NCBI RefSeq assembly: GCF_017565705.1
Contig: NZ_JAGDYL010000006.1
Location: 1-64,000, forward strand
Direction: 5' to 3'
Length of the DNA stretch: 64,000 nucleotides
Source of the DNA: Leucobacter ruminantium
GTDB taxonomy: Bacteria; Actinomycetota; Actinomycetes; Actinomycetales; Microbacteriaceae
Shown: piece after piece, positions 2,595 to 17,302 of the stretch
Position numbering within the stretch: position 1 is the stretch's first letter
Layout of the letters: each line of letters opens with the position of its first letter
Translations under genes and position numbers: made by a program
The notes under the pieces: model-generated
Told to the model about the DNA's origin: nothing
The model's input: only the letters and a program-made list of their open reading frames with translations
Databases searched by the model: none

Positions 2595-2604
2595 AGCTAT
2601 CCAG

Positions 2605-2802: not shown

Positions 2803-3669
2803 ATGCGCGCCCAGATAACGAAGAAGACCGTCACGAGCATCGCTGCGGGGGCAGCGATGCTGCTCGCCCTGACAGGCTGCTCGGGCGGGGGCCAAACTAG
2901 CGCGGGTATCGACGCAGCGCCCGAACAGGGCGTCTTCGAGTTCCAGACGCCGCGCTACGGCTCCGACAGCGGCGAGCTGCTGATCCGCCTGCCCGAAGGC
3001 CTCGTCAGCGCCCTCGGCGGCGACGCCGAGCCGCTAGTCACGGAGGCTGTACTCACCCCGCGCGAGCTCGACGGCGCGAAGTACTGCGCGGTCGACCTGT
3101 CGATCACCTACGCGGGTGAGGGCGAGGTCGTCCTGACGAAGCCCACGAAGACCGAGGCCGAGTGGCGCGAGGGCGAGGAGCTCAGCCTCCGGGATTACGC
3201 CATCGAGCCGATCGCCGACTACATCAACGAGACCGGCGACACGAGCCTCGTCTTCCAGGACCGCCCCAGCATGGAACAGATCGAGAAGTTCATCGACACT
3301 GCGGACTCCTACTTCCTCCAGGACCTCCCCGAGGCGTACGAGGCGTACCTCGCCTCCGAGTACAAGCCCAAGCCGGAGTGGTCCGTGCTGTCGTCCGCGA
3401 GCCCAGCGTCCGAGCTGGACGAGTCTGCGCCCGAGCCCGGCAGCTACATCACGTCGGACAATCGGCTGCTCACGATCGTCGACTCCTGCGCGGCATCACC
3501 CGCGGACGACGGGGGCACGGTGTTCACATTCCCCGTCCTCGCGGGCGGCGATGTCGAGACGCTCGCCGAGGTGAAGCTCTCCATCATGAAGTCGGGCACC
3601 ATCACCGTGACCAGCAGCGAGGTCGACGGGTTCGTCCGCGACACCGACGGCAACTGGATCGCTGACTGA
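2803..3669 (+). CDS. predicted lipoprotein
   Basis: A 288-residue exported protein of unknown function. The N-terminus has a basic stretch (MRAQITKKT), a hydrophobic core and a lipobox LTGC at residues 24-27, so lipidation on Cys27 and anchoring outside the membrane are expected. The mature part is acidic, with no family I can name. Several charged helices and a C-terminal beta-rich stretch (TITVTSSEVDGFVRDTDGNW) are visible. The RBS-like GAGG lies about 8 nt before the ATG. The next gene starts 14 bp after its stop, so the two form an operon. Surface lipoproteins on such elements sometimes act in entry exclusion or mating, but nothing in the sequence proves this. Confidence 0.8.
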   Translation: MRAQITKKTVTSIAAGAAMLLALTGCSGGGQTSAGIDAAPEQGVFEFQTPRYGSDSGELLIRLPEGLVSALGGDAEPLVTEAVLTPRELDGAKYCAVDLSITYAGEGEVVLTKPTKTEAEWREGEELSLRDYAIEPIADYINETGDTSLVFQDRPSMEQIEKFIDTADSYFLQDLPEAYEAYLASEYKPKPEWSVLSSASPASELDESAPEPGSYITSDNRLLTIVDSCAASPADDGGTVFTFPVLAGGDVETLAEVKLSIMKSGTITVTSSEVDGFVRDTDGNWIAD

Positions 3670-3683
3670 GCGCAGCCCAGAGC

Positions 3684-4799: not shown

Positions 4800-4815
4800 G
4801 CCGAGCATCACGAGA

Positions 4816-4850
4816 GACCCCGCAGCATCACGCTGCGGGGTCTTTGCTTT
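4816..4850 (+). terminator. intrinsic terminator
   Basis: An 11-bp perfect stem (4816-4826 with 4832-4842, arm GACCCCGCAGC) is followed by a T-rich tail. It ends the lipoprotein/membrane protein operon. Confidence 0.85.
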
Positions 4851-4982
4851 ACACCCGAGCACCCTCCCTTCGCGGAGGACCACTCGCCCCGACGAGCTCA
4901 GAACAAGGTGGACCAGATCGCGATCGGCGGTCATCTCACTGTCTCTCACTGCGACCCCGGAGGACCATGCTTTTCATACCCC

Positions 4983-5423
4983 CGAGGACCACGCCGAGGA
5001 CCACGCGAACCGAGAAGAGACCGAGTTTCGACGGAGGTTGAACCGAGTTTTGACCGAGTTTCAACGCCAATCGACACGAGAAATGACCGAGCAAACACCG
5101 AGTTTCAACGCGCTCTTGACCGAGCTACGACCGAGGTTTCGTGCCTCGGGAAAATCACCGAGGTTGGCACGAGATACGACCGACGTTGACGCGAGATTCA
5201 CCCGAAGTTTGACCGAGAAATGACCACCCGAGGTTGGCACGAGTTTGCACCGAGTCTCGACCGAGGTTCAACGGCGCGTTCACCGGCTTCTGGCCGAGAA
5301 GTAACCGAGGTCTGCACGAGTTTCGACCGAGGTTGACACGAGGTGAAAATCACCGAACCTCGACCGAGGTTTACGTGAGCTTCTACCAGCTTCTGACCGA
5401 GAAGTAACCGAGCTTGGCACGAG
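4983..5423. repeat. 11-bp phased repeat array (ACCGAG words)
   Basis: From 4983 to 5423 the word CGAG, usually as ACCGAG or CACGAG, recurs with an 11-bp step. Phase one: 5011, 5022, 5033, 5044, 5055, 5077, 5088, 5099, 5121, 5132. Phase two: 5159, 5170, 5181 (CGAC), 5192, 5203 (CGAA), 5214. Phase three: 5229, 5240, 5251, 5262, 5284 (CGGC), 5295, 5306, 5317, 5328, 5339. Phase four: 5354, 5365, 5376 (TGAG), 5387 (degenerate), 5398, 5409, 5420. The second and third slips are 15 bp and the first is 27 bp. Slip units contain AAAATCACC or AAATGACCACC. Eleven bp is not a multiple of three, so this is not a coding repeat. It lies between convergent genes and abuts the relaxase stop codon. The spacing suggests protein binding on one helix face, as in partition or transfer loci. 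Confidence 0.85.
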
Positions 5424-5426
5424 TCG

Positions 5427-7586
5427 CTACTCGAACTGCGCTTCGTCCTCTTCGTGGCCCTCAAGAAACACAGCCTCTTCCTCGGCGACCATCTCGTAGA
5501 CGCCGCGCGAAATCTGGTCGCGCGTCGCGTCGCGGGCGTCGTAGCGCCCCAGCTCGTGCAGCCACGCAGCAGTGCGCTTCTTCTTCTCGCGGAGCATCAT
5601 CTGCTCGTACACCAGCGGGTTCATGCTCCCACCGTGGTCGCGCAGGAACTTGTCGCCGAGGCCCTTCGGCACCGTGCGGTCGTCGATGCGGTGCCCCTGG
5701 GAGAGGGCGAGCAGCGCCGTGCGCTCGAACTCCGGCAGCGCGTCCAGCACCGCCTGCACGCGAGGAGAGACAGTGCGCTTCGGCTTCTGCTCTGCTCTCT
5801 GGCGCGTCAAATCAGGCGTCACCGGCCCCGTAGCGGGAGCGGAGGGGCTCGCAGCGACTGGCGCTTCAGGCTCAGCAGCAGGCTCGCTGGGCGCGTAGCG
5901 GTCCAGCAGCTCGTCGATCTCCTCGGGCGACTGATCCAGCAGCCCCTGGTCTTCCTCAGGTTCCTCCGTGGACGCAGCGGGAGCGGAGTCCACGGGCTGA
6001 GCATCGCCCGCTTCTTCCTCGTCTACGAGCGGAATCGAGGGCGTAGCGTCGGCCTCAGTAAGCCGCGCCTCGCGCTCCGCCAGCGCCGCAGCGACTCTCG
6101 CCTTCTCGGCCTCGCTGCGGGCCGTCTGCTCTGCGGCGAGGGCGGCGAGACGCTCGCGACGCTCTGCAGCACGAGCGTCGGCCTCGGCATCAGCGGCGGC
6201 CTGCTCGGCCGCCGCCTGCGCAGCGCGCTCGGCGATCCGGGCATCAGCCGCTGCGTCGTCCCGCGCCCGCTTCGCAGCGTCTCGTTTCTCCTGGTCTTCC
6301 AGGCGTTTCCGCCAGCCGGCGGGATCAGACTTGAGCTCGGCTGCAAGCCTCAGCACCGTCTCGTGGTCTCCGGTGTCATACGCTTCACCAGCCGCGTCGA
6401 AGTCCACGGCGAGGGCAGCCGCGAACTCCTCCTCCATGCGGTCGAGCTGCTCGTCACGCGCGAACGCCAGGACGTCATTGCGGATCTCTGCGAGCTCAGC
6501 AGGCGTAAGCGCAGCGACAGGCCGGGGGAGACCCGCCTGCACGCGCTCAGGACGCCTCTCGCGCGGTTTCCCGGCCCTGTTGCAGGCCAGCTGCTCCATG
6601 GCGCTCTCGTGCGCGTAGTGGTCGCCCAGCGTAGTGCCGCGGACGTTCTGCGGCATGCCCGGCAGCCGGTACGACAAGGCCCGCTTCTCCCGGGGCGTGC
6701 CCGCGCGCGTGATCCGCTCGAACACGAGGACATCTCGCTCGGCCATCGCCTCGGTGAAGCCCGCGAGATCGACCGCACGAGGATCAGCCATCGCTGCCTC
6801 GAATGCGTCGCGGATGATGTCGTGATTGGACTTCTCGCCGTTGCGAGCCATGCGGCGGTCGCGGCTGCTGCGCTTCTCGCGCTTCCGCTCAGCAGTAGAG
6901 GGCAGGCGCTGCGGCCCCAGGCCGTACTGCGCGCCGTGCTCGGCCAGGAACTTGTCAGCCCGGTCGCGCATCGCGTCGACATCAGTAAGCCCTCCAGCAA
7001 GCTTCGAGCCCGCCTTGTAGAGCTTCCCGTCGACCTCCTGGTCGGCGTACAAAGTAGCGTTCCGCACCACGTGCACGTGGAACGCGCCGCCTTTGCCGTC
7101 GGCCTGCCCGGTCGCCATGAACTGCTCGCCGGGGTAGTCCGTGCGCATCATGTCGTTGACGAACGCGAACGCATACGCCACCTGATCCGGGTCGTCGGGG
7201 TTCACCTCGTCAGGGCCGAACGAGATGATCAGGTGCCGCGCCTCGGCCTGGCGCACGAGGGCACCGGGATGACAGACGTGCGTCGCCATCTCGCCGTCGC
7301 GGGCCTCGCGCCAGACGCGGCGGCCGTTGGGGCGCGTGACGCGCACGTGCGTCGCCACTTCGCCAGCCTCAGGCAGCGCGTAGCGGGACGGCGAGGTACG
7401 CACAGCGCCCTGCGTGCCGAAGCGCCTGCGCGTCACCGCGAAGTCGACTGCCACTGTTTCCGGCCGGCAGTAGTTGCCCGCGACATGCAGCACGCGATCA
7501 GCAGCGGTCTGCCCGGGCTTCGGTTTCACCGTGTAGCGCGCCAGACGCGCCGCCACCTCCGTCGAGCTCACGACGATAACAGGCAT
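5427..7586 (-). CDS. HUH relaxase (MobA/VirD2-like mobilization protein)
   Basis: A 719-residue relaxase that should nick the element at oriT and pilot the transferred strand by a phosphotyrosine link. The N-terminal relaxase domain (about residues 1-300) has RHLIISFG at 117-124 and the metal-binding HUH motif FHVHVVRN at 169-176, with His170 and His172. Candidate nicking tyrosines lie in the first 40 residues (Y18, Y39). Residues about 400-560 are a long alanine-, arginine- and glutamate-rich coiled coil, then an acidic proline-rich linker, and a folded C-terminal domain (about 600-719). The ATG at 7586 lies just before the MobC stop, so the two are co-transcribed and probably translationally coupled. 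Two of the dispersed AGCGGGAGCGGAG hairpins lie inside the linker coding region. Family assignment is good; the exact MOB class is not certain. Confidence 0.88.
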   Translation of the reverse strand: MPVIVVSSTEVAARLARYTVKPKPGQTAADRVLHVAGNYCRPETVAVDFAVTRRRFGTQGAVRTSPSRYALPEAGEVATHVRVTRPNGRRVWREARDGEMATHVCHPGALVRQAEARHLIISFGPDEVNPDDPDQVAYAFAFVNDMMRTDYPGEQFMATGQADGKGGAFHVHVVRNATLYADQEVDGKLYKAGSKLAGGLTDVDAMRDRADKFLAEHGAQYGLGPQRLPSTAERKREKRSSRDRRMARNGEKSNHDIIRDAFEAAMADPRAVDLAGFTEAMAERDVLVFERITRAGTPREKRALSYRLPGMPQNVRGTTLGDHYAHESAMEQLACNRAGKPRERRPERVQAGLPRPVAALTPAELAEIRNDVLAFARDEQLDRMEEEFAAALAVDFDAAGEAYDTGDHETVLRLAAELKSDPAGWRKRLEDQEKRDAAKRARDDAAADARIAERAAQAAAEQAAADAEADARAAERRERLAALAAEQTARSEAEKARVAAALAEREARLTEADATPSIPLVDEEEAGDAQPVDSAPAASTEEPEEDQGLLDQSPEEIDELLDRYAPSEPAAEPEAPVAASPSAPATGPVTPDLTRQRAEQKPKRTVSPRVQAVLDALPEFERTALLALSQGHRIDDRTVPKGLGDKFLRDHGGSMNPLVYEQMMLREKKKRTAAWLHELGRYDARDATRDQISRGVYEMVAEEEAVFLEGHEEDEAQFE
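5825..5848 (+). repeat. dispersed stem-loop repeat, copy A
   Basis: Stem GCCCC/GGGGC around loop GTAGCGGGAGCGGA (5830-5843). Inside the relaxase gene, on the antisense strand. Confidence 0.75.
5966..5995 (+). repeat. dispersed stem-loop repeat, copy B
   Basis: Perfect 8-bp stem CCGTGGAC/GTCCACGG around loop GCAGCGGGAGCGGA (5974-5987). Inside the relaxase gene, on the antisense strand. Confidence 0.85.
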
Positions 7587-7587
7587 G

Positions 7588-8190
7588 TCAGCTCACCCCC
7601 TTGAGCGCGCGGTACTGCACGCTGGAGTCGCGCTGCGCATCACGCTGCATCGCCTTCAGGAGCGCCTCAAGCACGCGCCCGACGCGGTTCACGGCGTCGA
7701 CCGGCACAGCCTCGCCGCTGTTCGCGAGCTTCACTATCTGGTTCCAGTTGTTGCCGATGCGCTGCAGCTGGAACGTCTGCTCGGCGTAGCGCTTCGACAC
7801 GTCCTGCAGCGACTCGCGCAGCGCCACGAGAGCAGCAGAGTCCTCGTGCAAAGCGACGCTGCGGCGGTGCGACATGCGCTTCGCGAGCACGTCGTCGACT
7901 TTATCCACCGAGCCCGACGCGAGCGCCTCGTGCACACTCGTCACCGACGCGCGCAACGCGTCGGAACGGCTCCCTCCGAGCTGCTCGCGCACCTCGTCGA
8001 GAGCCGCGAGCTCCTCGGTTGACAGCCTGACGGCGACGACCTCGCGAGCTGCACTGGTCGCCGCGCTGCGCGCGTCGGCTGGCGCACCCTTCGCTCCGCT
8101 CGGGCCCGCCTGAGCGGTGTCGGACGCCTGCGCTGCCGCTGCGACATCCTCGCCAAACGTCGGGCGCTCTTTGCTCTTCTCTTCGTTCAT
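7588..8190 (-). CDS. mobC: MobC-like relaxosome accessory protein
   Basis: A 200-residue partner of the relaxase. Residues 54-85 read like a ribbon-helix-helix DNA-binding segment (VVAVRLSTEELAALDEV and GGSRSDALR). The C-terminal part has the MobC signature QLQRIGNNWNQIVKLANSGE at 141-160. MobC proteins bind near oriT and help open the nick region. The gene starts 17 bp from a large inverted repeat (8207-8291), the likely oriT, and ends 1 bp before the relaxase start. The alanine-rich N-terminus (1-50) is probably disordered. The first ATG, at 8190, is used. Confidence 0.88.
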   Translation of the reverse strand: MNEEKSKERPTFGEDVAAAAQASDTAQAGPSGAKGAPADARSAATSAAREVVAVRLSTEELAALDEVREQLGGSRSDALRASVTSVHEALASGSVDKVDDVLAKRMSHRRSVALHEDSAALVALRESLQDVSKRYAEQTFQLQRIGNNWNQIVKLANSGEAVPVDAVNRVGRVLEALLKAMQRDAQRDSSVQYRALKGVS

Positions 8191-8206
8191 CGCCTGCGCC
8201 CTCCGA

Positions 8207-8291
8207 GTGCTTAGTCACCTGCACTGTCACCCCGGACGCCTGCTACTTCGTACGCAGGCGCCTCGGGGATCCATTTTAGGTGACTAAGCAC
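8207..8291. other. candidate origin of transfer (oriT)
   Basis: A perfect 14-bp inverted repeat, GTGCTTAGTCACCT (8207-8220) and AGGTGACTAAGCAC (8278-8291), encloses a second nested pair: CCCCG and CGCCTGC on the left, GCAGGCG and CGGGG on the right, around a TACTTCGTAC loop. It lies directly upstream of mobC and the relaxase, the usual place for oriT of mobilization modules. The whole can fold into a long cruciform. An operator or attenuator for the mob operon is the alternative. No nick site can be assigned by eye. Confidence 0.6.
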
Positions 8292-8818
8292 TGGCAAGCA
8301 ACCTGACCGTTTACGTTCTTCGCTGCGCTCGAACTCAACAGTCAGGCCGGTCGTGTCTGTCTCGCTCACGCTCGACATCCACTTCCTTTGCTTGCGGGAA
8401 GGCTGCGCCCTCCTCGACCACCTGCTCACCTCGCGCTCTCGGAACCTGTACGGTTCCTCGATCGCGACGTGGTCATGCCGACCCTCGCGGCTCGTCATGA
8501 CACGCTCGCCGCACCGTGCTGCGCACGTCGCGGCTCGCTGAGCAGCGCACGTCTGCGCACCCTGACACGGGTGCTGCAGAACACACGCTGTCTCGCGTCA
8601 CGCGTGACGCTCGCGCGGTGCTCTGCGATCGCCCTGCGGTACCCGCTGACCGACGCAGACCACCACCCCGCACGAGGGAGGGGACCTCCCGTCGTGCGGG
8701 GGCATAGCCCCCGCCGGGTGGGGATGTGAGAAGGGTGTGAGCACGCACGCGCACACACGCAGCACACGCCAGCAGCACCACCCGTGCGGGAGGTGCGACA
8801 CCACGAGGAGACACCCAC
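8292..8818. other. intergenic region with overlapping hairpins
   Basis: No convincing gene is seen in this 527-bp gap between oriT and the small-gene operon. At 8666-8701 there is a long hairpin (arm CCCCGCACGAGGGAGG, one bulge). A second hairpin, GGGGGC-ata-GCCCCC, at 8697-8711 shares bases with the right arm of the first, so the two are mutually exclusive, as in attenuators. Both precede the operon starting at 8819. Confidence 0.5.
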
Positions 8819-9031
8819 ATGAGCACCAGCACGAGCAACGAAACGAGCAGCGGCAACACCCGCGAAGCGGCGATGCGCAGGCACCCCAGCTACCAAGCAA
8901 AACAGCACGAAGAGCCCGAGCAGGGACAGCACGATGACGAGGTCTACGAGGAAGGCGCGAGACGCGCCGCGCAGGCCTCGGAGCGGGAGCGGAGAGGTGG
9001 CACCGACCTCGCGCGCGAGGCAGCTTCATGA
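8819..9031 (+). CDS. small charged protein, first gene of a small-gene operon
   Basis: A 70-residue hydrophilic protein with no recognised family. It is rich in Glu, Arg, Ser and Gln and probably largely disordered (STSTSNETSSGN at the start, then a charged helix). The RBS-like GAGGAG lies about 9 nt before the ATG. Its TGA stop overlaps the next ATG (ATGA), indicating coupled translation. The dispersed hairpin repeat at 8976-8997 encodes its SERERR stretch. It may be a small accessory protein of the element; a chance frame cannot be fully excluded, but RBS and coupling support it. Confidence 0.55.
   Translation: MSTSTSNETSSGNTREAAMRRHPSYQAKQHEEPEQGQHDDEVYEEGARRAAQASERERRGGTDLAREAAS
8976..8997 (+). 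repeat. dispersed stem-loop repeat, copy C
   Basis: Short stem CCTC/GAGG around loop GGAGCGGGAGCGGA (8980-8993). Inside the 70-residue gene. Confidence 0.65.
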
Positions 9032-9222
9032 GTGAACCAGACGACGCTCTGCCCGCCCAACCATCACCGCCCGCGCACCAGCCCGGCCGCGCGATCGCGA
9101 TCAGCCAGGGGCGGAACTACTCGATCACCTACCCGGTTGGGCACCCGCTCTACGGCTCTGTCGGCTTCGACATCGACGCGGCCCTCGACGACCAGTACAA
9201 CGAGCAGGATGAGCCCTCATGA
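9028..9222 (+). CDS. small protein of unknown function
   Basis: A 64-residue protein with a proline-rich N-terminus and a C-terminal part ending in an acidic tail (AALDDQYNEQDEPS). The middle (ISQGRNYSITYPVGHP) looks like short beta strands. It starts inside the stop of the previous gene and its own stop overlaps the next start, so it sits in the middle of a three-gene coupled unit. No family is recognised. Confidence 0.55.
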   Translation: MSEPDDALPAQPSPPAHQPGRAIAISQGRNYSITYPVGHPLYGSVGFDIDAALDDQYNEQDEPS

Positions 9223-9362
9223 GCAGCATGAACACCCCGCCCATCTCGGCGGCGCCTGAGATCGAGCCCGAAGACACGCCGATCACGATCGACGACCTCG
9301 ACTGGGACGCCTGCGGCATCAGCCACGAGACGGGCGAGTTCATGTGGGGCAACGGAGACTAA
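9219..9362 (+). CDS. very small acidic protein (47 residues)
   Basis: A 47-residue reading frame starting at an ATG that overlaps the previous stop (ATGA) and ending at TAA. It is acidic (EIEPEDTPITIDDLDWDA) and ends in GEFMWGNGD. The DNA around its start is partly duplicated at the start of the 9445 gene. The coupling suggests it is translated; no function can be given. Confidence 0.5.
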   Translation: MSSMNTPPISAAPEIEPEDTPITIDDLDWDACGISHETGEFMWGNGD

Positions 9363-9444
9363 CCCGCCCGCATGCGGATCTGCTCGTGAGCCCCTCCCAG
9401 AGGACGCGGATCGACGACCAAGACAACGAGCAGGAGGACCGCTC

Positions 9445-9777
9445 ATGAGCGACGAGAATACTCCGCCTCTCTCGGCGACGGAGCGGGAGCGGAGGCGCCG
9501 GGCGGTACGAATAGTGCGCGGCAGCCATGCGCTCGACGGGTTCTACCCCGACGAGGAGGAACTCGCCGAGGACGAGGAGTACATCAATGGCACAGCGACC
9601 CTCGACGAGCTGATCGAGCGGGCGAAGGAGAAGTACGGCACCCACTCGGGCCCAGAGGGACAACAGAAGAGCCGTGGACGAGCGAAGACACCGCTGCTGG
9701 TAGCAGGGGCGCTCGCCCTCGCCTGCGTCCCGGGGCTGCTCGCCGGCCTCGTCTGGCGGCTCTGGCTCGCGCACTGA
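9445..9777 (+). CDS. small membrane-anchored protein
   Basis: A 110-residue protein with a charged cytoplasmic part and one C-terminal membrane segment (about residues 84-106, LLVAGALALACVPGLLAG), like a tail-anchored protein. The N-terminus has ATERERRRRAVR, encoded by one of the dispersed hairpin repeats (9473-9500). Its RBS GGAGG is about 7 nt before the ATG. The leader and first codons (9411-9450) closely resemble 9185-9224 in front of the 47-residue gene, suggesting a local duplication of gene starts. Function unknown. Confidence 0.65.
   Translation: MSDENTPPLSATERERRRRAVRIVRGSHALDGFYPDEEELAEDEEYINGTATLDELIERAKEKYGTHSGPEGQQKSRGRAKTPLLVAGALALACVPGLLAGLVWRLWLAH
9473..9500 (+). repeat. dispersed stem-loop repeat, copy D
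   Basis: Stem CGGCGAC/GGCGCCG (six of seven pairs) around loop GGAGCGGGAGCGGA (9480-9493). Inside the tail-anchored protein gene. Confidence 0.75.
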
Positions 9778-9806
9778 GACTCAGCCCGCTACGACCGATC
9801 ATGAAT

Positions 9807-9834
9807 GCCCCTCGGAGCGGCAGCAGAGAGGGGC
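9807..9834 (+). repeat. dispersed stem-loop repeat, copy E (variant loop)
   Basis: Perfect 7-bp stem GCCCCTC/GAGGGGC around GGAGCGGCAGCAGA (9814-9827), two changes from the consensus loop. Intergenic. Confidence 0.75.
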
Positions 9835-9920
9835 GGGCAGAAGAGCGACCAAGACAGCCGCAAGAGCGCTCTGCGAGGACCACCACGAAACAAAGCCCGA
9901 GGACCACGTCCTGACCCCTT

Positions 9921-9946
9921 GGCGGCGGAGCGGGAGCGGAGCCGCT
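9921..9946 (+). repeat. dispersed stem-loop repeat, copy F
   Basis: Stem GGCGGC/GCCGCT (five pairs plus one G-U) around loop GGAGCGGGAGCGGA (9927-9940). Intergenic. Confidence 0.75.
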
Positions 9947-10000
9947 GCGTGGTCCTCCTGACCCGTCGCGAAAGAACCGGCGTGGTCCTCGCTGCGCTTT

Positions 10001-10030
10001 CCGACCCCGCAGCGGGAGCGGAGGGGGCGG
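10001..10030 (+). repeat. dispersed stem-loop repeat, copy G
   Basis: Stem CCGACCCC/GGGGGCGG (seven of eight pairs) around loop GCAGCGGGAGCGGA (10009-10022). Intergenic. Confidence 0.75.
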
Positions 10031-10091
10031 TGATGAGCGCATCGCGCGCACAGAAGAACAGCAACACCAAGCACAGAGAGAAAAGAGCACC

Positions 10092-10658
10092 ATGACTAAA
10101 ACCAGCAAGACCCCCGACGGCAAAGCAGCAAGCCCCGACTGGGCCGTCGTCTCCTCGGCGACGGTCTACGACCTCAGCTACACGGACAATCGTGGCTCCC
10201 GGCAGCTCCTGCTGATCGGCTACGACAAGCCGCACGCCATCCACGCGGCGCTGGCGCACCTGCGAGGGATCAACGGCCCTCGCGGCTACGCGAAGCGCAC
10301 CCGCAGCGGCTGGATCACCCGCAACGACCCGCGCAGGCACGAGAGGCACAGCCACCGCGGTGTCAACACGCTGATGCTCGTGCACGGCTCGGAGGGCGAC
10401 CCCTCTGGGGCGCGCCCAGGAATCAGCGTCGAGAAGCACGCAGTGCTGCGCGAGCGACGGGCCGACGGCATCACGACTAGCCGCGAGTTCGAGGCCCGCT
10501 TCGCCATAGTCCCGGAAGAGAACATCTTCTTCCCGGAGGAGACCGAGGACAACCCCTCAGGGATCGTGCGCGTCTCGTTCGACGAGCAGCGCGCGAGGAA
10601 GGCGCGCCACCTGGAGCCGCAGCCGACGATCCATGTACTGAGTACCCCCGGAGCATGA
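10092..10658 (+). CDS. hypothetical protein
   Basis: A 188-residue soluble protein that I do not recognise. The first part reads as a compact alpha/beta fold (TVYDLSYTDNRGSRQLLLIGYDKPHAIHAALAHL, given here only by its core: YDLSYTD, LLLIGYDKP, AIHAALAHL). A basic stretch (about 68-90) and a C-terminal region with acidic and hydrophobic residues follow. No membrane segment or signal peptide is seen. It sits 98 bp before the VbhA-like gene and likely shares its transcript, which ends at the terminator at 11177. Confidence 0.65.
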   Translation: MTKTSKTPDGKAASPDWAVVSSATVYDLSYTDNRGSRQLLLIGYDKPHAIHAALAHLRGINGPRGYAKRTRSGWITRNDPRRHERHSHRGVNTLMLVHGSEGDPSGARPGISVEKHAVLRERRADGITTSREFEARFAIVPEENIFFPEETEDNPSGIVRVSFDEQRARKARHLEPQPTIHVLSTPGA

Positions 10659-10756
10659 GGCGTGTGCTGTGCTTGCTGGTGCCAGCAAGCACAGCACAGC
10701 GTCGCACTACAGGCACTGGTGCATTGCACGAAACGACAAGAGAAGGAGACCGCGCC

Positions 10757-11146
10757 ATGGCCGAGGACGACGAGAGCAGGAGCGCTCCCGCGACCCCGAT
10801 AACAGAGGCAGGAGTCGACGCCCGCCTCGCCGCCGCCGACGGCGTCCTCGGCGCTGGCGGTCACAAAGTCACCGACCCCGTCGCGCGGGAGATCGTCCGC
10901 CGCAAGATCCGCGGCGAGATCAGCAGCGAGGAAGCAGACCGGCTTATCCTCGCGCACTGCGGCGTCACGCCTTGGGCGCAGCACACTCGCGAGTGCCGCT
11001 TCTTCAAGCCGAGAGCGATGCTGTCGGCTGCTCCCATGCAGGGCGATCAGAGCGAGCAGGACGACCACCACTCAGAGCCGCTCTTCGCCGGCCCGGAGCT
11101 CCAGGCGATGTACGACGCAGCTGAGCCGTCGCCAGGCGGCGACTGA
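10757..11146 (+). CDS. VbhA-like antitoxin-domain protein
   Basis: A 129-residue protein. Residues about 20-72 match the pattern of VbhA-type antitoxins that inhibit Fic-domain AMP-transferases: an alanine-rich helix, GGHKVTDPVAREIVRRKIRG and then EISSEEADRLILAHCG. The Fic toxin, with its HPFxxGNGR motif, is not seen anywhere in the window, so this looks like an orphan or solo antitoxin, perhaps anti-Fic protection or a regulator. I chose the ATG at 10757 because AAGGAG lies 9 nt upstream; an upstream GTG-type extension has no RBS. The protein ends in a flexible acidic tail. The family call rests on pattern recognition only. Confidence 0.55.
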   Translation: MAEDDESRSAPATPITEAGVDARLAAADGVLGAGGHKVTDPVAREIVRRKIRGEISSEEADRLILAHCGVTPWAQHTRECRFFKPRAMLSAAPMQGDQSEQDDHHSEPLFAGPELQAMYDAAEPSPGGD

Positions 11147-11176
11147 CCGCGGCCTCGGAGAAGCTAGAGACAAACA

Positions 11177-11214
11177 AGTGACCCCGAGGCATCGCACCTC
11201 GGGGTCACTGTTTT
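11177..11214. terminator. bidirectional intrinsic terminator
   Basis: A perfect 13-bp stem (11177-11189 with 11197-11209, arm AGTGACCCCGAGG) is followed by GTTTTC. It separates the plus-strand operon ending at 11146 from the convergent minus-strand gene ending at 11239. Confidence 0.85.
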
Positions 11215-11238
11215 CATGCGGGTCTGCACGCGTGGAGC

Positions 11239-11601
11239 TCACAGCCCGAGCGCCCGCCGGAGCTCGGCGATCCTCTTCGCCTCGCCGAGGTCTCCCGGGC
11301 TCTCCACGATGTTGTGCAGGCGGTACAGGTCCTCGACGAGCCGGGAGCGGCGCTCCTCGCGCTTCGCGGTCACCCTGGCCTGCAGGGTCTCGACCTGAGC
11401 GAGAGCGCGCTCCAGGCGCTCTTCCTCGGTGAGGGCACGCTTGCTCGTGCGTCGCCTCGTGCTCGGCTGGGCAGGGGGAAGCACAGCAGCAGGCGCAGCA
11501 ACATCCTGCGCGAGCTCCTCCGCCTCGGAGAAATCCTCGTCCTGCTCGTGGTCGGTGCTCTTCTGGTCCTCGGCGTCCAGCGCCGCGTAGTCGAAGCTCA
11601 T
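11239..11601 (-). CDS. coiled-coil protein of unknown function
   Basis: A 120-residue protein with an acidic N-terminus (residues 1-35), a proline/alanine linker and a strongly charged coiled coil from about residue 52 (ALTEEERLERALAQVETL and onward), ending in a small helix (AKRIAELRRALGL). Such proteins occur in mobilization and replication clusters as accessory factors, but I do not recognise a family. It is the last gene of the minus-strand run that begins with the excisionase and helicase-primase. Confidence 0.6.
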   Translation of the reverse strand: MSFDYAALDAEDQKSTDHEQDEDFSEAEELAQDVAAPAAVLPPAQPSTRRRTSKRALTEEERLERALAQVETLQARVTAKREERRSRLVEDLYRLHNIVESPGDLGEAKRIAELRRALGL

Positions 11602-11676
11602 GATGTCGTCTCTCCTTCAGGTAGTTGGTCTAGTCGTGCTCGTGAGAGCTCGGTTGGTGTGGTGGTTTGGTTGTGC

Positions 11677-11877
11677 TCAATCCTCGTGCGCAGCGGGAGC
11701 GGAGGACGAGGGGCGGGCAGGACGGGCAGAGGCGGCAGCTGCGCGCCGCTCCAGGCGCTCGGCGGCGCGCAGGTGGCCGCCCTGGGCGGCCCAGAAGTAC
11801 AGCGCGGCACTGAAGCAGCCCAGCGCGCCCAGGCTCAGCACGGTGATCACCAGCAGGAAGACAGTGCGCTCGTCCAT
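11677..11877 (-). CDS. small single-span membrane protein
   Basis: A 66-residue protein with one hydrophobic segment near the N-terminus (VFLLVITVLSLGALGCFSAA) and a basic, alanine-rich tail. I chose the ATG at 11877; a GTG one codon upstream is also possible. Its ATG overlaps the stop of the 24-codon frame before it (TGATG). One dispersed hairpin repeat (11682-11711) lies in its 3' part. No family recognised. Confidence 0.55.
   Translation of the reverse strand: MDERTVFLLVITVLSLGALGCFSAALYFWAAQGGHLRAAERLERRAAAASARPARPSSSAPAAHED
11682..11711 (+). repeat. dispersed stem-loop repeat, copy H
   Basis: Stem CCTCGTGC/GGACGAGG (seven of eight pairs) around loop GCAGCGGGAGCGGA (11690-11703). In the 3' part of a small minus-strand membrane protein gene. 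Confidence 0.8.
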
Positions 11878-11951
11878 CACAGGCTCCTCTCGTCGTCGGG
11901 GCGGAGCTTCGCGCGGACGGCGAGACTCTCGTGGTCGGTGTTCTCAGTCAT
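11877..11951 (-). CDS. 24-residue upstream ORF (possible leader)
   Basis: A 24-codon frame (starting MTENTDHESLAV) whose stop overlaps the ATG of the small membrane protein. A purine-rich stretch lies upstream, but no clear Shine-Dalgarno sequence is seen. It may be a coupled small gene or leader. Evidence is only overlap and position. Confidence 0.35.
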   Translation of the reverse strand: MTENTDHESLAVRAKLRPDDERSL

Positions 11952-12003
11952 GATGTTCTCTCTCTCTTTTTCTTGTTGCTGGTGAGGTCGGGAGCAGGTG
12001 CCC

Positions 12004-14151
12004 CTACCCGGTCGGCGACAGCAGCTCGTCGAGGTCTGCCCGCGCTGCGACGACCGCGAGGGCGATGCTCTCGGCGCGAGCGATCTCGGTCGGGTCGTAC
12101 GCGCGCTGCGGCGCGGCGCCGCACGAGCACGAGGAGCCGATGCGCATGATCCGGGCGTGCTCGGGCACATGAGCAGGATCGGCGACGCCCTCGCCCTCCA
12201 CCGCGCGCTTCTCCCAGAGAGCCTCCTCGTCTGCAGCGAGGCGCTCGCAGCGGATGAGATGCGCCTCGGCCGCGGCGACCACGGGGTCGGCAGCAGGAGC
12301 GAGCGCGTGGGCCGGCGAGACAGCAGCAGTGAGCGGAGCAGCACGGTCCCGGTACAGCACGTTGCGGAACTGCATGCCCTTCGGGAAATCGCGCTTCCAC
12401 TTCTCGGGCATCTCGAATACGTTGCGGTGCTGGTACTCCACGACGAGCGGCTCCCGCCCCGCCATTCGCGTCGAGGCCTTCATCTTCTCGCCCTTGCCGA
12501 GGTCGACCCAGTCGCCCGGGCCGTCGGCGACGGCCGCCCTGATGCTGTCGTCGAACGACTTGCGGTCGACCATGTGGCCGCTCGGCTTGTTGCGCGCAAA
12601 CCAGCCCTTGTAGACCTCGAACAGGAACTCCAGCGGCAGGAGATCCCACACGAACTCGTCTCGGTGCTCGGCCCAGAACAGGCGCACCGGGTCGTTATCG
12701 TTCTTCGCCTCCAGCAGCAGGGCCGCCGAGACGGAGGTCTCGCTGTAACCGGTGAAGTCCATCTCCAGGGCCCGGCGCATGACGTACTGCAGCACCTCAG
12801 GGCGGTGCATGTAGTCGTCCTTGATGTACTTGCGCTCGCGGCCCTCGAAGCGGGCCGTGAGCGGGATCAGCAGCCAGCGGCGCCACATGCTCCCGCCGTG
12901 GTCGCCGAACTTCGGCAGCGCGTTCATGCAGTGGATCTGCGCTCCCTCGAATACCTCGTTGTAGGGCTTCTCGTACTTCGGGTTCACCAGGATCGGGTCC
13001 CGGGTGGCGAGGGACTTGATGATCTCGGCGTTCCTGACGAAGTCGTTCGTCGCGTTCTCGTCGGAGGCGATCAGCGACTTGCCGGAGATCAGGGGCAGAG
13101 TAGCGTCCTTCGCGAGGTTCGAGAGGCTCGCAGCGAGCGTCCTGGACTCCCCGGCGAGACCGGTCGCCAGAGCGACGATCGTGCCCTTGCCGTTATTGCC
13201 GTCCTTGTCGTAGAGCGCCACCGCCTTATTGGTTCGTATGTGCGGCTGCGCCACTGAAGCGAGGACCTCCCAGAGCTGGCCGTAGACCTCCTCGTCTCCA
13301 TCCGCGATCTCCATGAGACCCGAGTCGACGTCCCAGTCGGTGCCGTCGTCATCGTTGTGTATCACGGGGTTCTGCGCATCTGCCACATATGCGACGGGTG
13401 AGCGGGACAAGAACACGCGGTCCGGCGAGAACGGGTGCAGCTCACCCGTGGCGCGCTCGTAGTCGCCGTTCGCGACGGGGGCCCAGAGCGCGCTCGTCTC
13501 CCGCCTGATGCGCGGCGCGAGGCGACGCACCGCCGACTCGACGTCCTTCATGAAGCTCGCGCCCCCTGAAGAGTTGTACACGCCAGCCAGCGCGAAGACG
13601 TGCTCCACGTTCGGACTGTAGACGCCGTGCTCCGGGTCCCAGACAACGACGGGGTCGAGCTTGTCGGGACGGGCTCCGGGGGCGCGCGAGGCCAGGAGCC
13701 TGCGCACGCCGTGGAGGGAGACCAGGATGCGCGCGACCTGGTTGAACGTCAGCGTCTTCAGCAGCGGGGCCTGGTTCTTCTCGTTCGCGTCGGCCCTGGG
13801 GCTGACGCGAACGGCCCGGCCCGCGTTGAGGAGGCGCAGGTTCGCGTTCACCTGCTCCAGGAGTTCGCGCTCGATGTCCTGCGGGTGAGGGAGCGCTTCT
13901 CCGCGCGCTGCGGCCTCCAGGAGACCGTCCAGGTACACCGTGGTCACATTCTCGATGACCGAGTTCTGCGTATCGGCGTCCTTGCTCGGGGACGAGGAGA
14001 AAGTCGCTGCGACAACTGGCAGGAACGCCTCGGTTCCTGTAGTATTGATCTCAGCGCCGCCAAACGCTTTGGGAGCCCCTCGACTCGTGTCGGGGGCTTC
14101 TTCTTTTTCGGGCGGTGCTCCCGACTGGACGGGCACGGTCTGCTCGGTCAT
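12004..14151 (-). CDS. D5/P4-type DNA primase-helicase (replication protein)
   Basis: A 715-residue protein that should unwind, and possibly prime, DNA at the element's own origin. The superfamily 3 helicase core is visible: Walker A GNNGKGT at 318-324, an acidic Walker B-like segment LIASDEN at 360-366, a sensor NALPKFGDHGG at 410-420 and an arginine-finger candidate WRRW at 423-426. The N-terminal 300 residues, a region that is a primase-like domain in this family, show no motif I can assign with confidence. A C-terminal tail has a cluster CSCGAAP near 675. The gene is 1 bp downstream of the excisionase-like gene and about 700 bp from an iteron array, giving a self-contained replication module. 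Such helicase-primases are typical of integrative elements and P4-like satellites. Confidence 0.8.
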   Translation of the reverse strand: MTEQTVPVQSGAPPEKEEAPDTSRGAPKAFGGAEINTTGTEAFLPVVAATFSSSPSKDADTQNSVIENVTTVYLDGLLEAAARGEALPHPQDIERELLEQVNANLRLLNAGRAVRVSPRADANEKNQAPLLKTLTFNQVARILVSLHGVRRLLASRAPGARPDKLDPVVVWDPEHGVYSPNVEHVFALAGVYNSSGGASFMKDVESAVRRLAPRIRRETSALWAPVANGDYERATGELHPFSPDRVFLSRSPVAYVADAQNPVIHNDDDGTDWDVDSGLMEIADGDEEVYGQLWEVLASVAQPHIRTNKAVALYDKDGNNGKGTIVALATGLAGESRTLAASLSNLAKDATLPLISGKSLIASDENATNDFVRNAEIIKSLATRDPILVNPKYEKPYNEVFEGAQIHCMNALPKFGDHGGSMWRRWLLIPLTARFEGRERKYIKDDYMHRPEVLQYVMRRALEMDFTGYSETSVSAALLLEAKNDNDPVRLFWAEHRDEFVWDLLPLEFLFEVYKGWFARNKPSGHMVDRKSFDDSIRAAVADGPGDWVDLGKGEKMKASTRMAGREPLVVEYQHRNVFEMPEKWKRDFPKGMQFRNVLYRDRAAPLTAAVSPAHALAPAADPVVAAAEAHLIRCERLAADEEALWEKRAVEGEGVADPAHVPEHARIMRIGSSCSCGAAPQRAYDPTEIARAESIALAVVAARADLDELLSPTG

Positions 14152-14152
14152 C

Positions 14153-14503
14153 TCACTCGCCCCCGATCGTGATGAGGGCGTCTGCGAACGCCGAGAGCAC
14201 GACGTCGCGCTGCTCAGGTCGCAGCGGGGGAGCAGCCTCAGCCACGCGCTTCGCCCACAGGCGGAGGGTGGAGTCGTCCGCCGTTCGCGCGCCCGCGAGC
14301 ACAGGCGCCGGGCCGAAGAGCGCGTCGAGGTCTCCCGAGGACACGCGGTGCTTGCCGTTGACGATCTGGGACGGCAGCCTGCCGTCGGCGATCCTACGCA
14401 TCAGAGTGACGCGGGACACGCCCGTGTAGACGACTGCCTGGGTCAGGTCGAGGTGGTCCTCGCCGTCGCGGCCCACGAGCACTGTCCGATTACGCTCCGC
14501 CAT
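14153..14503 (-). CDS. MerR-like helix-turn-helix protein, excisionase candidate
   Basis: A 116-residue protein with a helix-turn-helix at residues 18-50: LTQAVVYTGVSRVTLMRRIA, then DGRLPSQIVNGKHRVS. This arrangement, ending in a short wing and a DLDALFG-like stretch, is seen in excisionases and MerR-type DNA-binding proteins. The C-terminal half (LRLWAKRVAEAAPPL onward) is helical and may serve dimerisation. It is the first gene of the minus-strand run and lies 1 bp from the helicase-primase gene. It could be the recombination directionality factor for the serine integrase or the replication regulator; the sequence does not decide between them. Confidence 0.65.
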   Translation of the reverse strand: MAERNRTVLVGRDGEDHLDLTQAVVYTGVSRVTLMRRIADGRLPSQIVNGKHRVSSGDLDALFGPAPVLAGARTADDSTLRLWAKRVAEAAPPLRPEQRDVVLSAFADALITIGGE

Positions 14504-14884
14504 GATGGCGGCCTCTCCGCAGAAGGGCGCGACGAGCGCTCACCGAGCGGTGAGTGCTTCAGTCGCCTGCCGGCTCCTGGGACCTGCCCTTGCGCCCTCC
14601 CGCTTGAGAGGATGTTCAGGGGTGTGCGATAAACGTGGGACTCGTGTTACGTCGGTGGGTAGTCACTTCCATTCCTCCGACGCCGCCGAAGCGGGGGCAT
14701 TGTTCTTCAGGTCTCTGTTGCCTCAAGCATATCTTGTGTCTACCTGACGCCGCAACCACAAGATGTAGTGTGTCGCGAGATTTTCCGTGGCGGTCCGGGC
14801 GGCGCTCCCGCTCGCCGTTGGGGAGGAGGATCCCTCCCTCCAGAGGGTGCTCGGCCTGGGTGGAGAGGGCGGTCGATCTACGGC
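14504..14884. other. intergenic region upstream of the replication operon
   Basis: No gene is seen. An inverted repeat ATCTTGTG (14731-14738) and CACAAGAT (14757-14764) could be an operator for the operon starting at 14503. The sequence 14691-14770 is relatively AT-rich and could hold its promoter. Confidence 0.4.
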
Positions 14885-15204
14885 GGGTGACAGCAGCTGT
14901 CACCCGCTTTTACCGCATGATTACGCGGAAGTTGACCGCGCGGGTGACACGGGTGACAAACGAGCAGAGCCCTTGTCACCCGCTTTTGCCGCGGAATCAT
15001 GCGGAAGTAGCCGTCCGGGTGACACGGGTGACAGATTTTCTGCTCAACCTTATATAGAGAAATCACACTTCGTGAGAGCTGGTTTCTAAATATAGTCATA
15101 ACTCAAAAATGCTGTCACCTGTCACCCATAGGGGTAAAAACCGCAGAATCATGCGGCTAGAACGGGTGACAATGCGGGTGACAGGCTGTCACCCGCTGTC
15201 ACCC
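14885..15204. repeat. GGGTGAC iteron array, probable origin of replication
   Basis: The heptamer GGGTGAC occurs direct at 14885, 14942, 14951, 15017, 15026, 15164 and 15176, and inverted (GTCACCC) at 14899, 14975, 15121, 15188 and 15198. The first pair forms a perfect 23-bp palindrome (CGGGTGACAGC and GCTGTCACCCG around one A). Three times the order is GTCACCC, then a short palindrome CCGC...ATCATGCGG (or close), then a GGGTGAC pair; that is, three long direct units. Between units two and three lies an AT-rich stretch (about 15040-15112). Iterons plus AT-rich DNA next to a helicase gene are the classic picture of a plasmid or element origin. Confidence 0.8.
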
Positions 15205-15267
15205 ACCGCCATGCACCCGTCTGCCCGAGCAACCTCATGCCCGACGAGCTCTCCCTCCCCATCGACC

Positions 15268-15299
15268 GTCCGAGGCGCAGCGGGAGCGCAGCCGCGGAC
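15268..15299 (+). repeat. dispersed stem-loop repeat, copy I (variant loop)
   Basis: Stem GTCCGAGGC/GCCGCGGAC (eight of nine pairs) around GCAGCGGGAGCGCA (15277-15290), one change from the consensus loop. Next to the iteron origin. Confidence 0.8.
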
Positions 15300-15345
15300 C
15301 TCAAGACGTCACAAGACTCTGCGACCACACGTCTCGTCGCCCTCT

Positions 15346-15373
15346 CCGTGACGCAGCGGGAGCGGAGTCACGG
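15346..15373 (+). repeat. dispersed stem-loop repeat, copy J
   Basis: Perfect 7-bp stem CCGTGAC/GTCACGG around loop GCAGCGGGAGCGGA (15353-15366). Next to the iteron origin. Confidence 0.85.
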
Positions 15374-15537
15374 GGCAAGCAAGCGCAGCAGAGAGCGCAG
15401 CAACAGTCGGCAACGACCACGCACAACGAGCGCAGCAACAAACCGTGACACGCCGTGCCGATCATCGCTTCGCGATGTAGATCGGATCGTCTAGCCTGTG
15501 ACCAGTCGTAAGACTCATGCTGCGACTGCCTTTCAAG

Positions 15538-15585
15538 GGGCCGCTTCAGGACTCGGACACCACGGAGCGGCCCTCACCTTTTTCT
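15538..15585. terminator. probable terminator near the integrase 3' end
   Basis: An 8-bp stem GGGCCGCT (15538-15545) and AGCGGCCC (15566-15573) is followed on the plus strand by a run of five T. It lies 40 bp beyond the integrase stop. The loop of 20 nt is long, so the call is moderate. Confidence 0.4.
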
Positions 15586-15613
15586 CGGCTCCGGCAGTGC
15601 GCTTTATTGCTCG

Positions 15614-17260
15614 CTACTTCCAGCCGGGCACCACACGCTCAGGGTGCAGACCCTTCTGCCCGCGGGCACCGCGCTTCACACGAGGGGCGAGTACAGCGCC
15701 TATGACGCGCCTGCGCTCGATGAGATCCATCTTCTCCCACGCCTGGCGAACGGCGCCCTCGCGCGCCACTTTGAGGACCCAGGGGTCGACCTCGCTGAGC
15801 TGCTCCAGCCGCTTCTGCGCCGCCTCGATCTTCGGCTCGACCCGTGCCTGCTGGTCGAACAGCAGGTCTAGGTTGCGCTCGCGCTCGGCCCGCTCCCTGA
15901 CCTGCTCCAGCCACTCGCGGTGCCCGTCGATCTCTTCGAGCAGAGCCCGGCGCTCGGCGTCGTTGCCGCTACCCCTTCCAGCAGCGGCCGCCACGAAGTC
16001 CGGCCGCTCCAGCCGCGCGAGCACGAGCTCCGTCACGATCTGGTCGAGCGACTCCATCTTCATCGCAACGTGGAAGCCCTTCTTCCCGTCCGGGCCCGGC
16101 CTGCCGGGCAGTCCCTGGCACATGTACGTCAAATAGTGCGGCCGGTCGATCACCATCATCGGTTCGCCGTGCTCGTCGAACATCGGTCGCATCTGCCTGT
16201 CCAGGCGCTGTTTCATGGCGACCTGCTTCACCGGCTGACCAGCCGCGTCGAGCACGGGAGAACCATCCGCGTCGAGCACCGGCACGAGTCTCTTGCCCCC
16301 GGCGTTCTGCTTCCCGACGCGCAGCGAGGAGCCGCAGACGTCGCAGAACGCGATCCCGCTGAGCAGGTGCTTGAACTCCCGGAAGGCTCCGGGTCGCTTG
16401 CGTGAGGCAGGAGAGAGCGCTGCCTGCAGTCGCACCCAATCGTCGTACTCGATCAGAGCCGGCCACACGGCGTCGCCCACGATCTCACCGCGGTGCTGGC
16501 GCTTGCCTGCGTACGCGGGCATAGTGAGCATCTGCTTGATTGCCGCCCCATCCCAGCCGTGGTGCATGCGGTGCTCCTTGCGCTTGGGTCGACGGGGCTC
16601 GATGCCCCGTTCGTTGAAGCTCTTCGCGATCGAGTACATGCTCTCTCCCGCGAGCGCCCGGCGTGCGGCTTCTTTGACGATCGGCGCCTGCTCCGGGTGC
16701 TCCTCGATCCGCACCAGCTCACGAGTCTGAGGGTCGTAAATACGGAGGTACCCGTAGACATTCTTTCCGTGGGGCTTGCCCTCCTTCGCCGCGTCGCGGA
16801 CGTTGCGACGGATGCGCTCAGAGGACTTGTCGCTCTCGTACTCGGCGTCGACGGCGTCCTCGTGCAGCGATCGCCTGTCGCGAGCGTTCGTAGGGTCGTA
16901 GAGCCTGCTGTGCGTCGTAACCCAGATCTTGACCCCTCGATCTTCGCAGAGCTCGATCAGCCGGGACCACTCGCTCACCCGGCGCGAGCCGCGCGACGAC
17001 TCCCAGATCGCGAGCACGTCAGCGTCGAACGTCCCGCCCTCCAGGTCGGCGACGAGCCGCTCGAAGTCCTCGCGTCCGCCGCGCGCGTAGCGGCTCGCAC
17101 TTCGATCGACGTCGCGGTACGGCTCCGAGGCATGCGGCACGAGACCCTCGCGCGCGAATGCCCTCAAGTTCTCCTCGTGCTGCTGATCGGGAGACTTACC
17201 GGTCTTCTTGTCGTCCCTGGACACGCGAAGGTATTCCCGCACTACTAATGACCTGGTCAT
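15614..17260 (-). CDS. large serine integrase
   Basis: A 548-residue large serine recombinase that should integrate and excise the element. The N-terminal catalytic domain starts with VVREYLRVSRDD, the serine of RVS (about residue 14) being the nucleophile, followed by the usual arginine-rich motifs (WESSRGSRRVSEWSRL near 90). A recombinase domain (about 165-280) and a zinc ribbon (CDVCG near 310 and YMCQG near 380), then a coiled-coil segment (about 430-500) complete the family plan. I chose the ATG at 17260 because GAGGTG lies about 7 nt upstream; a GTG at 17269 is possible. A TATAAT box (17281-17286, minus strand) lies 20 nt upstream, right at the comEC junction. The integrase sits at the element edge, as usual. 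Confidence 0.93.
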   Translation of the reverse strand: MTRSLVVREYLRVSRDDKKTGKSPDQQHEENLRAFAREGLVPHASEPYRDVDRSASRYARGGREDFERLVADLEGGTFDADVLAIWESSRGSRRVSEWSRLIELCEDRGVKIWVTTHSRLYDPTNARDRRSLHEDAVDAEYESDKSSERIRRNVRDAAKEGKPHGKNVYGYLRIYDPQTRELVRIEEHPEQAPIVKEAARRALAGESMYSIAKSFNERGIEPRRPKRKEHRMHHGWDGAAIKQMLTMPAYAGKRQHRGEIVGDAVWPALIEYDDWVRLQAALSPASRKRPGAFREFKHLLSGIAFCDVCGSSLRVGKQNAGGKRLVPVLDADGSPVLDAAGQPVKQVAMKQRLDRQMRPMFDEHGEPMMVIDRPHYLTYMCQGLPGRPGPDGKKGFHVAMKMESLDQIVTELVLARLERPDFVAAAAGRGSGNDAERRALLEEIDGHREWLEQVRERAERERNLDLLFDQQARVEPKIEAAQKRLEQLSEVDPWVLKVAREGAVRQAWEKMDLIERRRVIGAVLAPRVKRGARGQKGLHPERVVPGWK

Positions 17261-17302
17261 ATCACTCACCTCTGGTAATAATTATAGCTGGGGCGAACTG
17301 CG
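17261..17302. other. attachment junction (one att site) in comEC
   Basis: Left of about 17287 the DNA is integrase leader and AT-rich (TAATAATTATAG); right of it GGGGCGAACTGC encodes the GANC part of the ComEC signature. The crossover therefore lies around 17285-17300. Serine integrases recombine at a 2-bp core, which cannot be fixed without the empty site or the other junction. The integrase -10 box lies in this junction. Confidence 0.7.

Follow-up and report, generated by a model that had tools for sequence, protein, structure and literature searches.

The left end of a 64,000-nucleotide stretch of Leucobacter ruminantium (contig NZ_JAGDYL010000006.1, positions 1 to 64,000; hereafter the window) is an integrative element located at the contig end (1 to ~17,270; 17.27 kb). 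It carries ten plus-strand hairpins, which share a loop, C-GNAGCGGGAGCGGA-G, on stems of differing sequence. The hairpin family is real, selected and strongly strand-biased, and it was not met in the literature and database searches made. Its fold covaries, its copies favor one strand, it is linked in Leucobacter to one type of helicase gene, and it is positioned beside iteron-like repeats and beyond the mobC gene. The hairpins may be single-strand initiation (ssi)-like or loading signals read by a host factor, a reading to which we give somewhat less than an even chance.

Hairpins 1 (5820..5853, loop 5830-5843) and 2 (5964..5997, loop 5974-5987) lie antisense to the relaxase gene at its 3' end, and hairpin 2 has a perfect 8-bp stem. 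Hairpins 3 (8970..9003, loop 8980-8993), 4 (9470..9503, loop 9480-9493), 5 (9804..9837), 6 (9917..9950, loop 9927-9940) and 7 (9999..10032, loop 10009-10022) come next, with hairpin 4 inside the 5' end of a VbhA-like gene. Hairpin 8 (11680..11713, loop 11690-11703) is upstream of a minus-strand reading frame (11239-11601). Hairpins 9 (15267..15300) and 10 (15343..15376, loop 15353-15366) lie to the right of the iteron-like repeats. The VbhA-like antitoxin gene itself (9445-9777) has an Arg/Glu-rich start that is encoded by hairpin 4.

The exact 13-mer AGCGGGAGCGGAG occurs eight times in the window (5832, 5976, 8982, 9482, 9929, 10011, 11692 and 15355), always on the plus strand. The count for the whole 3,305,448-base genome is also eight, all on the plus strand of the element, and a reversed-pattern control gave two. 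Hairpin 5 carries the loop variant GGAGCGGCAGCAGA (9816, two mismatches) and hairpin 9 the variant GCAGCGGGAGCGCA (15279, one mismatch). An earlier sequence-only reading of this DNA had listed ten plus-strand copies with a shared loop, eight of them exact and two variant, and none in the chromosomal part. All ten were recovered, and the general loop pattern is absent from 17,301-64,000. That every copy is on the plus strand holds for these ten, but there is a weaker minus-strand hairpin within mobC (8119..8152; 25 bits, or 27.9 bits with the later model R3), kept in the relatives G403 and G323, whose membership in the family is uncertain. The copy suspected near 14226 has three mismatches, a broken stem and a poor score (13.3 bits, E = 1.3), and is not supported. 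A further weak plus-strand model match is at 1928-2006 (20.5 bits).

The head of the hairpin is composed of G-N-A, GC, GNNA, GC and G-N-A, that is, a symmetric GNA/GNA internal loop, two G-C pairs and a tetraloop. The internal loop could form sheared G-A pairs in combination with a GNNA tetraloop. Motifs of sheared G-A internal loops and GNNA tetraloops are very stable. A search of the open PubMed Central (PMC) subset found no paper on the stability of such loop motifs.

In the register of the 14-nt loop, all ten copies form five to seven of the first seven flanking pairs. The chance level at window positions is 9.0% for five of seven pairs and 1.8% for six. Paired cells amount to 88.2% over the ten copies, against 65.6% in shuffles, and none of 500 shuffles reached that level. 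Changes on both sides are seen in eight of the nine outer stem pairs. The covariation score is 0.610; shuffles give 0.189 and slid registers no more than 0.190, in line with the earlier observation that the stems vary yet stay paired.

Two larger sets show the same tendency. Set A3 consists of 34 distinct copies from seven loci (41 gathered copies minus six duplicates and one distant copy, L081 15149); 87.2% of its cells are paired and its score is 0.571 against 0.166, in a set that was gathered by loop, partly also by stem or position, and so leans to structure. Set A5 consists of 29 loop-gathered sites, out of 34 opposite-strand loops found, in five further elements (G434, G414, G404, G416 and G096). 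Here 73.3% of cells are paired against 61.0% in shuffles (0/500), and the score is 0.294 against 0.131 in shuffles and at most 0.127 in slid registers. Set A5 is weaker than the first set. Between 4 and 15 of its 27 distinct rows fail to pair at any given outer position, and the sister elements G414 and G404 supply the majority of the rows. When arms were shuffled between copies, z was 5.7 for the ten copies, 10.6 for the 34 copies and 6.3 for the 29 sites; it was 6.2 for all 34 opposite-strand loops and 5.4 for the 24 sites of the strict pattern alone. The three sets together bear out the proposal of selection on a folded single strand, DNA or RNA alike, which is a property of ssi sites.

Compensatory replacements are seen in orthologs. 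Pair 2 of hairpin 3 is changed from T-A to C-G in G403. Pair 8 of hairpin 9 is changed from T-A to G-C or C-G in two relatives, with an unpaired G-G in a third, and pair 2 of hairpin 10 from A-T to G-C, with G-G in another. DNA folding returned the intended hairpin as the minimum-energy fold in nine of the ten cases, the exception being hairpin 6. Six of the ten fold clearly better than shuffles (z of -2.28 or lower); the other four (z from -0.43 to +0.17) do not, because the sequence is very GC-rich.

The hairpins are associated with a helicase gene. In the window, this gene (12004..14151, minus strand) encodes a superfamily 3 (SF3)/D5 (P4-type) replicative helicase, as indicated by profile matches, without a detected primase catalytic domain. 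A helicase search (E 1e-25) found the gene in 12 of 54 Leucobacter genomes, and loops are present near the helicase in all 12. For eight of the 12, hairpins were already on record from the search R1 or by loop pattern; G096 was also known, and G434, G414 and G404 were new. The last three, found by reading the helicase neighborhood, have variant loops with GTGA or GGCA for GGGA. Because that look was directed, R3 was run over all 54 genomes. Clusters, defined as at least two R3 matches within 10 kb (E up to 0.03), were observed in 9 of the 12 genomes with the helicase and in none of the 42 others, some of the genomes being fragmented and the R3 filters strict. G434, G416 and G096 each have one R3 match in the element and more loops by pattern, and 15 of the 42 helicase-less genomes have isolated R3 matches. 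The R3 model was built from 40 sites picked for good stems, so its matches lean to structure. In G404 (L293, 2376-2611), hairpins with a GGCA-type loop stand in a tight series ~30-50 nt apart.

The strand of the hairpins follows the helicase gene. In the 12 elements, 53 R3 matches are on the strand opposite the helicase gene and two, both the mobC site, on the same strand. With the pattern GNAGCGNNAGCGNA, the stretches read, flanks included, contain 58 opposite-strand and 10 same-strand loops, and 43 and 4, respectively, when at least five of seven pairs are required. Three of these four are the mobC site and one lies in the G416 gene in the place of mobC. The 12 elements share ancestry, and these counts are not independent trials. 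The prediction that one DNA strand is the main target agrees with this distribution, and ssi sites are likewise one-stranded.

The helicase is the only reading frame of the window element (at least 50 amino acids, E 1e-5) that is matched in all 11 other elements. Sixteen helicases were compared with Pfam, and the matches were DUF5906 (16), Pox_D5 (14), D5_N (12) and a papillomavirus helicase model (1); a primase catalytic domain was absent in 16 of 16. Families named primase (TIGR01613 and several PHROGs) do match the protein, through its helicase part. In PDB chain 7ola ("DNA primase", 797 residues), the helicase profile covers residues 296-759 and leaves 1-295 unmatched. The term helicase-primase used in the sequence-only reading is therefore right as to the primase-named families, but only the helicase part is involved and no primase catalytic domain was detected.

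The hairpins lie near a probable origin and in a presumed leading region. Twelve iteron-like GGGTGACA sites on both strands are found at 14885..15204, with none in the 46.6 kb of chromosome (17,401-64,000), and this array is the probable replication origin. A 13th site, at 8225, is within a candidate origin of transfer (oriT; 8206..8330). In L079 and L080, the hairpins come after an array of other, GTTAC-type repeats. The candidate oriT has a perfect 15-bp inverted repeat (8206-8220/8278-8292) followed by GGCAAGCAACCTGACCG, which is conserved in G403 and G323, the repeat being imperfect in G323; a nick site there is a guess. Gene order and the inverted repeat 8206-8292 with CAACCTG downstream suggest, short of proof, that the plus strand is the transferred one. 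With five divergent relaxase types, the first loop lies past mobC or its positional counterpart, at ~0.3-0.8 kb from where that gene starts: at 8970 in the window (G000), 4931 in G096, 9823 in G416, 7174 in G434 and 11644 in G414. The nearest such sites in G096 and G434 are poorly paired, and better ones are at ~0.8 kb. Hairpins beyond mobC presumably lie in the leading region. The position beside the iterons and beyond mobC may correspond to that of ssi sites, by an origin or in a leading region, if the predicted origin and oriT are right.

The relaxase domains are 23-35% identical in the compared pairs, with short C-terminal stretches at 35-58%. The relaxases of the window and G434 are under the Pfam cut-off, and that of G096, without a Pfam match, was called by similarity to the others. 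A link between hairpins and relaxase (3 of 54 genomes) was considered and given up as too narrow: no relaxase was found in four hairpin-bearing helicase elements. In these four (G412, G413, G400 and G428), the search was by PF03432 and by similarity to the relaxase of the window, and other relaxase families were not searched. Elements with a relaxase carry more loops (8 versus 4 elements, p = 0.06), which is only suggestive.

The loop alone is not a signature of the family, and exact loops elsewhere are not hairpins beyond chance. Among the 80 matches listed for viral contigs, from 120 stretches, none has all six pairs 2-7 and one has five. Of 52 distinct Leucobacter loop sites outside clusters, nine reach five of seven pairs and one reaches six, near the window chance level. 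Sequence encoding Glu-Arg-Glu-Arg-Arg can likewise produce the loop.

Searches for the family were extended to 249 genomes of the bacterial family (R1), 396 of the order (R2) and 398 of the family (R3), in overlapping draws. No true cluster was found outside Leucobacter with these searches, whose strict filters can miss weak copies. Two paired matches, in G277 and G218, were rejected as low-complexity repeats, and a lone match in G158 is low-complexity coding sequence. No loop with a stem was seen in five helicase elements from outside Leucobacter, one of which has a helicase ~50% identical to that of the window. An unbiased search for further repeated hairpin loops in five non-Leucobacter elements gave nothing comparable. 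Plasmids gave no DNA match to 5400-17,300 and phages none to 11,700-17,300, the part to which that search was confined. The window relaxase has two plasmid matches at 24-26% and one relative among genome contigs. Rfam gave ten matches (to E = 5) in 1-17,400, all below cut-offs and none at any of the ten hairpins. In the open PMC subset, no paper on such sites was found, and among the papers listed the loop string occurs in four, with titles on mammals.

Within the 54 Leucobacter genomes, R1 found clusters or pairs in G403, G323, G412, G413, G428 and G400 besides the window. Other Leucobacter elements, including those with divergent relaxases, carry related hairpins, some with loop variants. 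Neither condition that the sequence-only reading had named as refuting it is borne out: relatives with complementary stems exist in other elements, and the paralogous copies lack common flanks, unlike copies of one ancestral insertion. The sites in G413, G400 and G428 were at one time taken as remnants; this was dropped when the helicase was found 27-34 kb away, and they are probably long elements.

The hairpins can be interpreted as follows. The plus strand would become single-stranded in one of two ways: as the lagging-strand template when replication starts at the iterons, or as the strand transferred during conjugal mobilization. Each exposed site would then fold into its variable stem, the GNA/GNA internal loop, the two G-C pairs and the GNNA tetraloop. 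A factor, probably host-encoded, would read the constant loop and start or load complementary-strand synthesis. With several copies, the stretch left single-stranded would be shorter. Multiple copies would suit an element whose SF3 helicase seems to have no primase domain. Such an element would need an outside priming system, as ssi sites give known plasmids. A host factor would be the simplest reader since five helicase elements of other genera have no stem-bearing loop and the searches made gave no true cluster outside Leucobacter. The single-stranded DNA (ssDNA) state of the strand, the host reader and the priming outcome are the putative parts of this scheme. The hairpins are perhaps best filed as ssi-like by function, and not as a proven member of the ssi sites. 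This is compatible with the earlier idea that the transferred or lagging strand carries sites for loading or priming.

Several observations weigh against the ssi-like interpretation. G403 has a second hairpin pair at dprA, ~53 kb from its helicase, and the 50 kb around it (1,235,000 to 1,284,999) contain no helicase match. G103, of another genus, has a weak opposite-strand R3 match (24.2 bits, E = 0.022). Elements without a found relaxase have only two or three hairpins, beside the iterons, which is few for a whole lagging strand. Ten loops are on the same strand as the helicase gene, four of them with stems. Stems are poor in G434, G416 and G096, where five of eight sites score four of seven or lower. 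Stems have also decayed among orthologs, e.g., hairpins 1 and 2 in G403, and single copies seem dispensable. In each of the eight elements with both genes, helicase and relaxase point in the same direction, and replication and transfer therefore cannot be separated. Given their shared ancestry, the 12 elements are not independent events. The apparent absence of a primase domain rests on sequence profiles, and the single-stranded intermediate, the priming and the binding are steps that we infer.

Among the alternatives, Frpo-like single-strand promoters are unlikely. The folded transferred strand would recruit host RNA polymerase, with transcription leftward into minus-strand genes early in the recipient. 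In the excerpted text of PMC9849209, Frpo sites are described as single-strand promoters of the leading region, and in three elements the nearest hairpin is ~50-80 nt upstream of a small minus-strand frame (window 11239-11601; G096, start 5388; G416, start 9772). However, Frpo differs in rebuilding the -10 and -35 boxes in the fold (PMC9849209), and no box could be conserved in stems that vary freely, as those within the 34-nt sites do. The candidate leading-region genes (9028-11146) are on the plus strand and unreadable from a plus-strand template, and no minus-strand gene is evident to the left of hairpins 1 and 2.

An equally modest probability is assigned to loading or recognition sites for a protein of the element, the SF3 helicase or the relaxosome, without priming. 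No protein but the helicase is shared by all 12 elements, and the hairpin strand tracks the orientation of the helicase gene. Against this, the same helicase type in the five elements of other genera is not accompanied by a stem-bearing loop, and the GGGA-type loop is kept constant between Leucobacter elements although their helicases are only 31-41% identical to that of the window.

Somewhat less probable are structured RNA elements in plus-strand transcripts, such as protein-binding or processing hairpins. Covariation by itself fits RNA as well as DNA, GNRA tetraloops are a typical RNA feature, and several copies are in or between plus-strand reading frames at 8.8-11.1 kb. However, minus-strand genes lie opposite or on either side of copies 1, 2 and 8-10, the strand rule is relative to the helicase gene and not to the local gene, and Rfam has no match at any of the ten.

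Exchange of segments between attC-like recombination sites is improbable. The attC sites of integrons are single-strand hairpins that are recognized by shape and have variable stems. What G323 is missing corresponds almost precisely to the window segment between hairpins 3 and 5, which looks like a loop-to-loop deletion, and two similar joins are seen in G404 when compared with G414. All three have chimeric arms, which counts for recombination sites and against ssi-like signals. Yet the stems at two of the three joins are clearly broken, most copies have matched arms, and direct repeats of 14-22 nt can be deleted by slippage. The elements do not share a recombinase: the serine recombinase of the window is matched in six of the 11 others, three at only 25-27%. 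The copies do recombine, most simply by slippage between repeats, and unlike at attC this recombination may be accidental. Small mobile hairpins, the weakest candidate and one that the sequence-only reading had raised, would explain many same-loop copies at dispersed places, but are very improbable: stems are not copied with the loop, hairpin positions are the same in aligned relatives, no empty site with intact flanks is seen, the losses observed are deletions from one loop to another, and the shared flanking arms of repetitive extragenic palindromes or miniature inverted-repeat transposable elements are missing.

The remaining genes of the window element include those for a PF03432-type relaxase (5427..7586; 16.6 bits, under the family cut-off of 24.6), MobC (7588..8190), an excisionase-like DNA-binding protein (14153..14503; under the family cut-off) and, at the right-hand limit of the element, a large serine recombinase (15614..17269). 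These and the helicase gene are all on the minus strand. Directly left of hairpins 1 and 2, 17 ACCGAG repeats are found on the plus strand only (5009-5412), possibly a second origin or a partition site. Six AAAACGTACCA repeats (729-1137) are the third repeat array of the element. A non-coding stretch at 15436-15600, alignable in L079, L080 and L081, has a promoter-like stretch, a short hairpin and a terminator hairpin with a T tail. These features were read by eye, and a simple promoter/terminator scan flagged neither; the stretch is possibly a small RNA.

The chromosome flanking the element reads like comEC. Elements or relics of the hairpin family are also observed at the competence genes comM and dprA (L075 9070-9259; L079/L080 at ~9.2-10.6 kb). 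In G413 (L294, L295 and L079), ~38 kb between dprA and comM contain the helicase gene, type I restriction genes, an Mrr-like nuclease, an Abi_C protein and a ClpB-like ATPase. This looks like a defense island with its own replication helicase.

Known systems resemble the hairpins in part; the papers cited are represented by excerpts. Strand-specific ssi and Frpo sites (PMC7690428), as well as sso sites (PMC5714925), are used by host priming enzymes or RNA polymerase. Several plasmids have such folded priming sites, among them ssiA/B of RSF1010 and Frpo of F (PMC7690428, PMC4434180), and Frpo shares the leading-region position (PMC7690428). RSF1010 differs in having one site per strand and a cognate primase, which reads the ssiA hairpin (PMC4434180). 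The Leucobacter hairpins are set apart from ssi by description: 2 to ~11 copies, mostly on one strand, with a constant loop and free stems. Single-strand origins (sso) carry a short conserved loop box, CS-6. In rolling-circle plasmids, host enzymes alone start the second strand at the sso, and pT181 is described with a single primer at its sso (PMC5714925). A host factor may act here too, but the Leucobacter hairpins are dispersed and tied to an SF3-helicase element. STAXI is also a repeated structured motif, near ssDNA and antirestriction genes, and was proposed to act possibly as single-stranded DNA; it differs in its pseudoknot, frequent UUCG loops and occurrence in Enterobacteriales (PMC2864571).

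To our knowledge, little is known about priming by elements with a bare SF3 helicase or about second-strand synthesis after transfer in Gram-positives. A bolder version, which we consider possible but rather doubtful, is that the repeated hairpin, its head nearly invariant, would give the primase-less SF3-helicase elements of Leucobacter host-read starts at both the origin and the transferred strand, as one signal for replication and post-conjugation establishment and an undescribed ssDNA code. A repeated, covarying, strand-specific hairpin with a fixed head is a direct handle on these processes: cloning it, mutating its loop or stem and using it as bait for its reader protein are all possible. 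If the ssi-like interpretation is true, the family would be a rare case of visible covariation for folded single-stranded DNA across many copies of one element.

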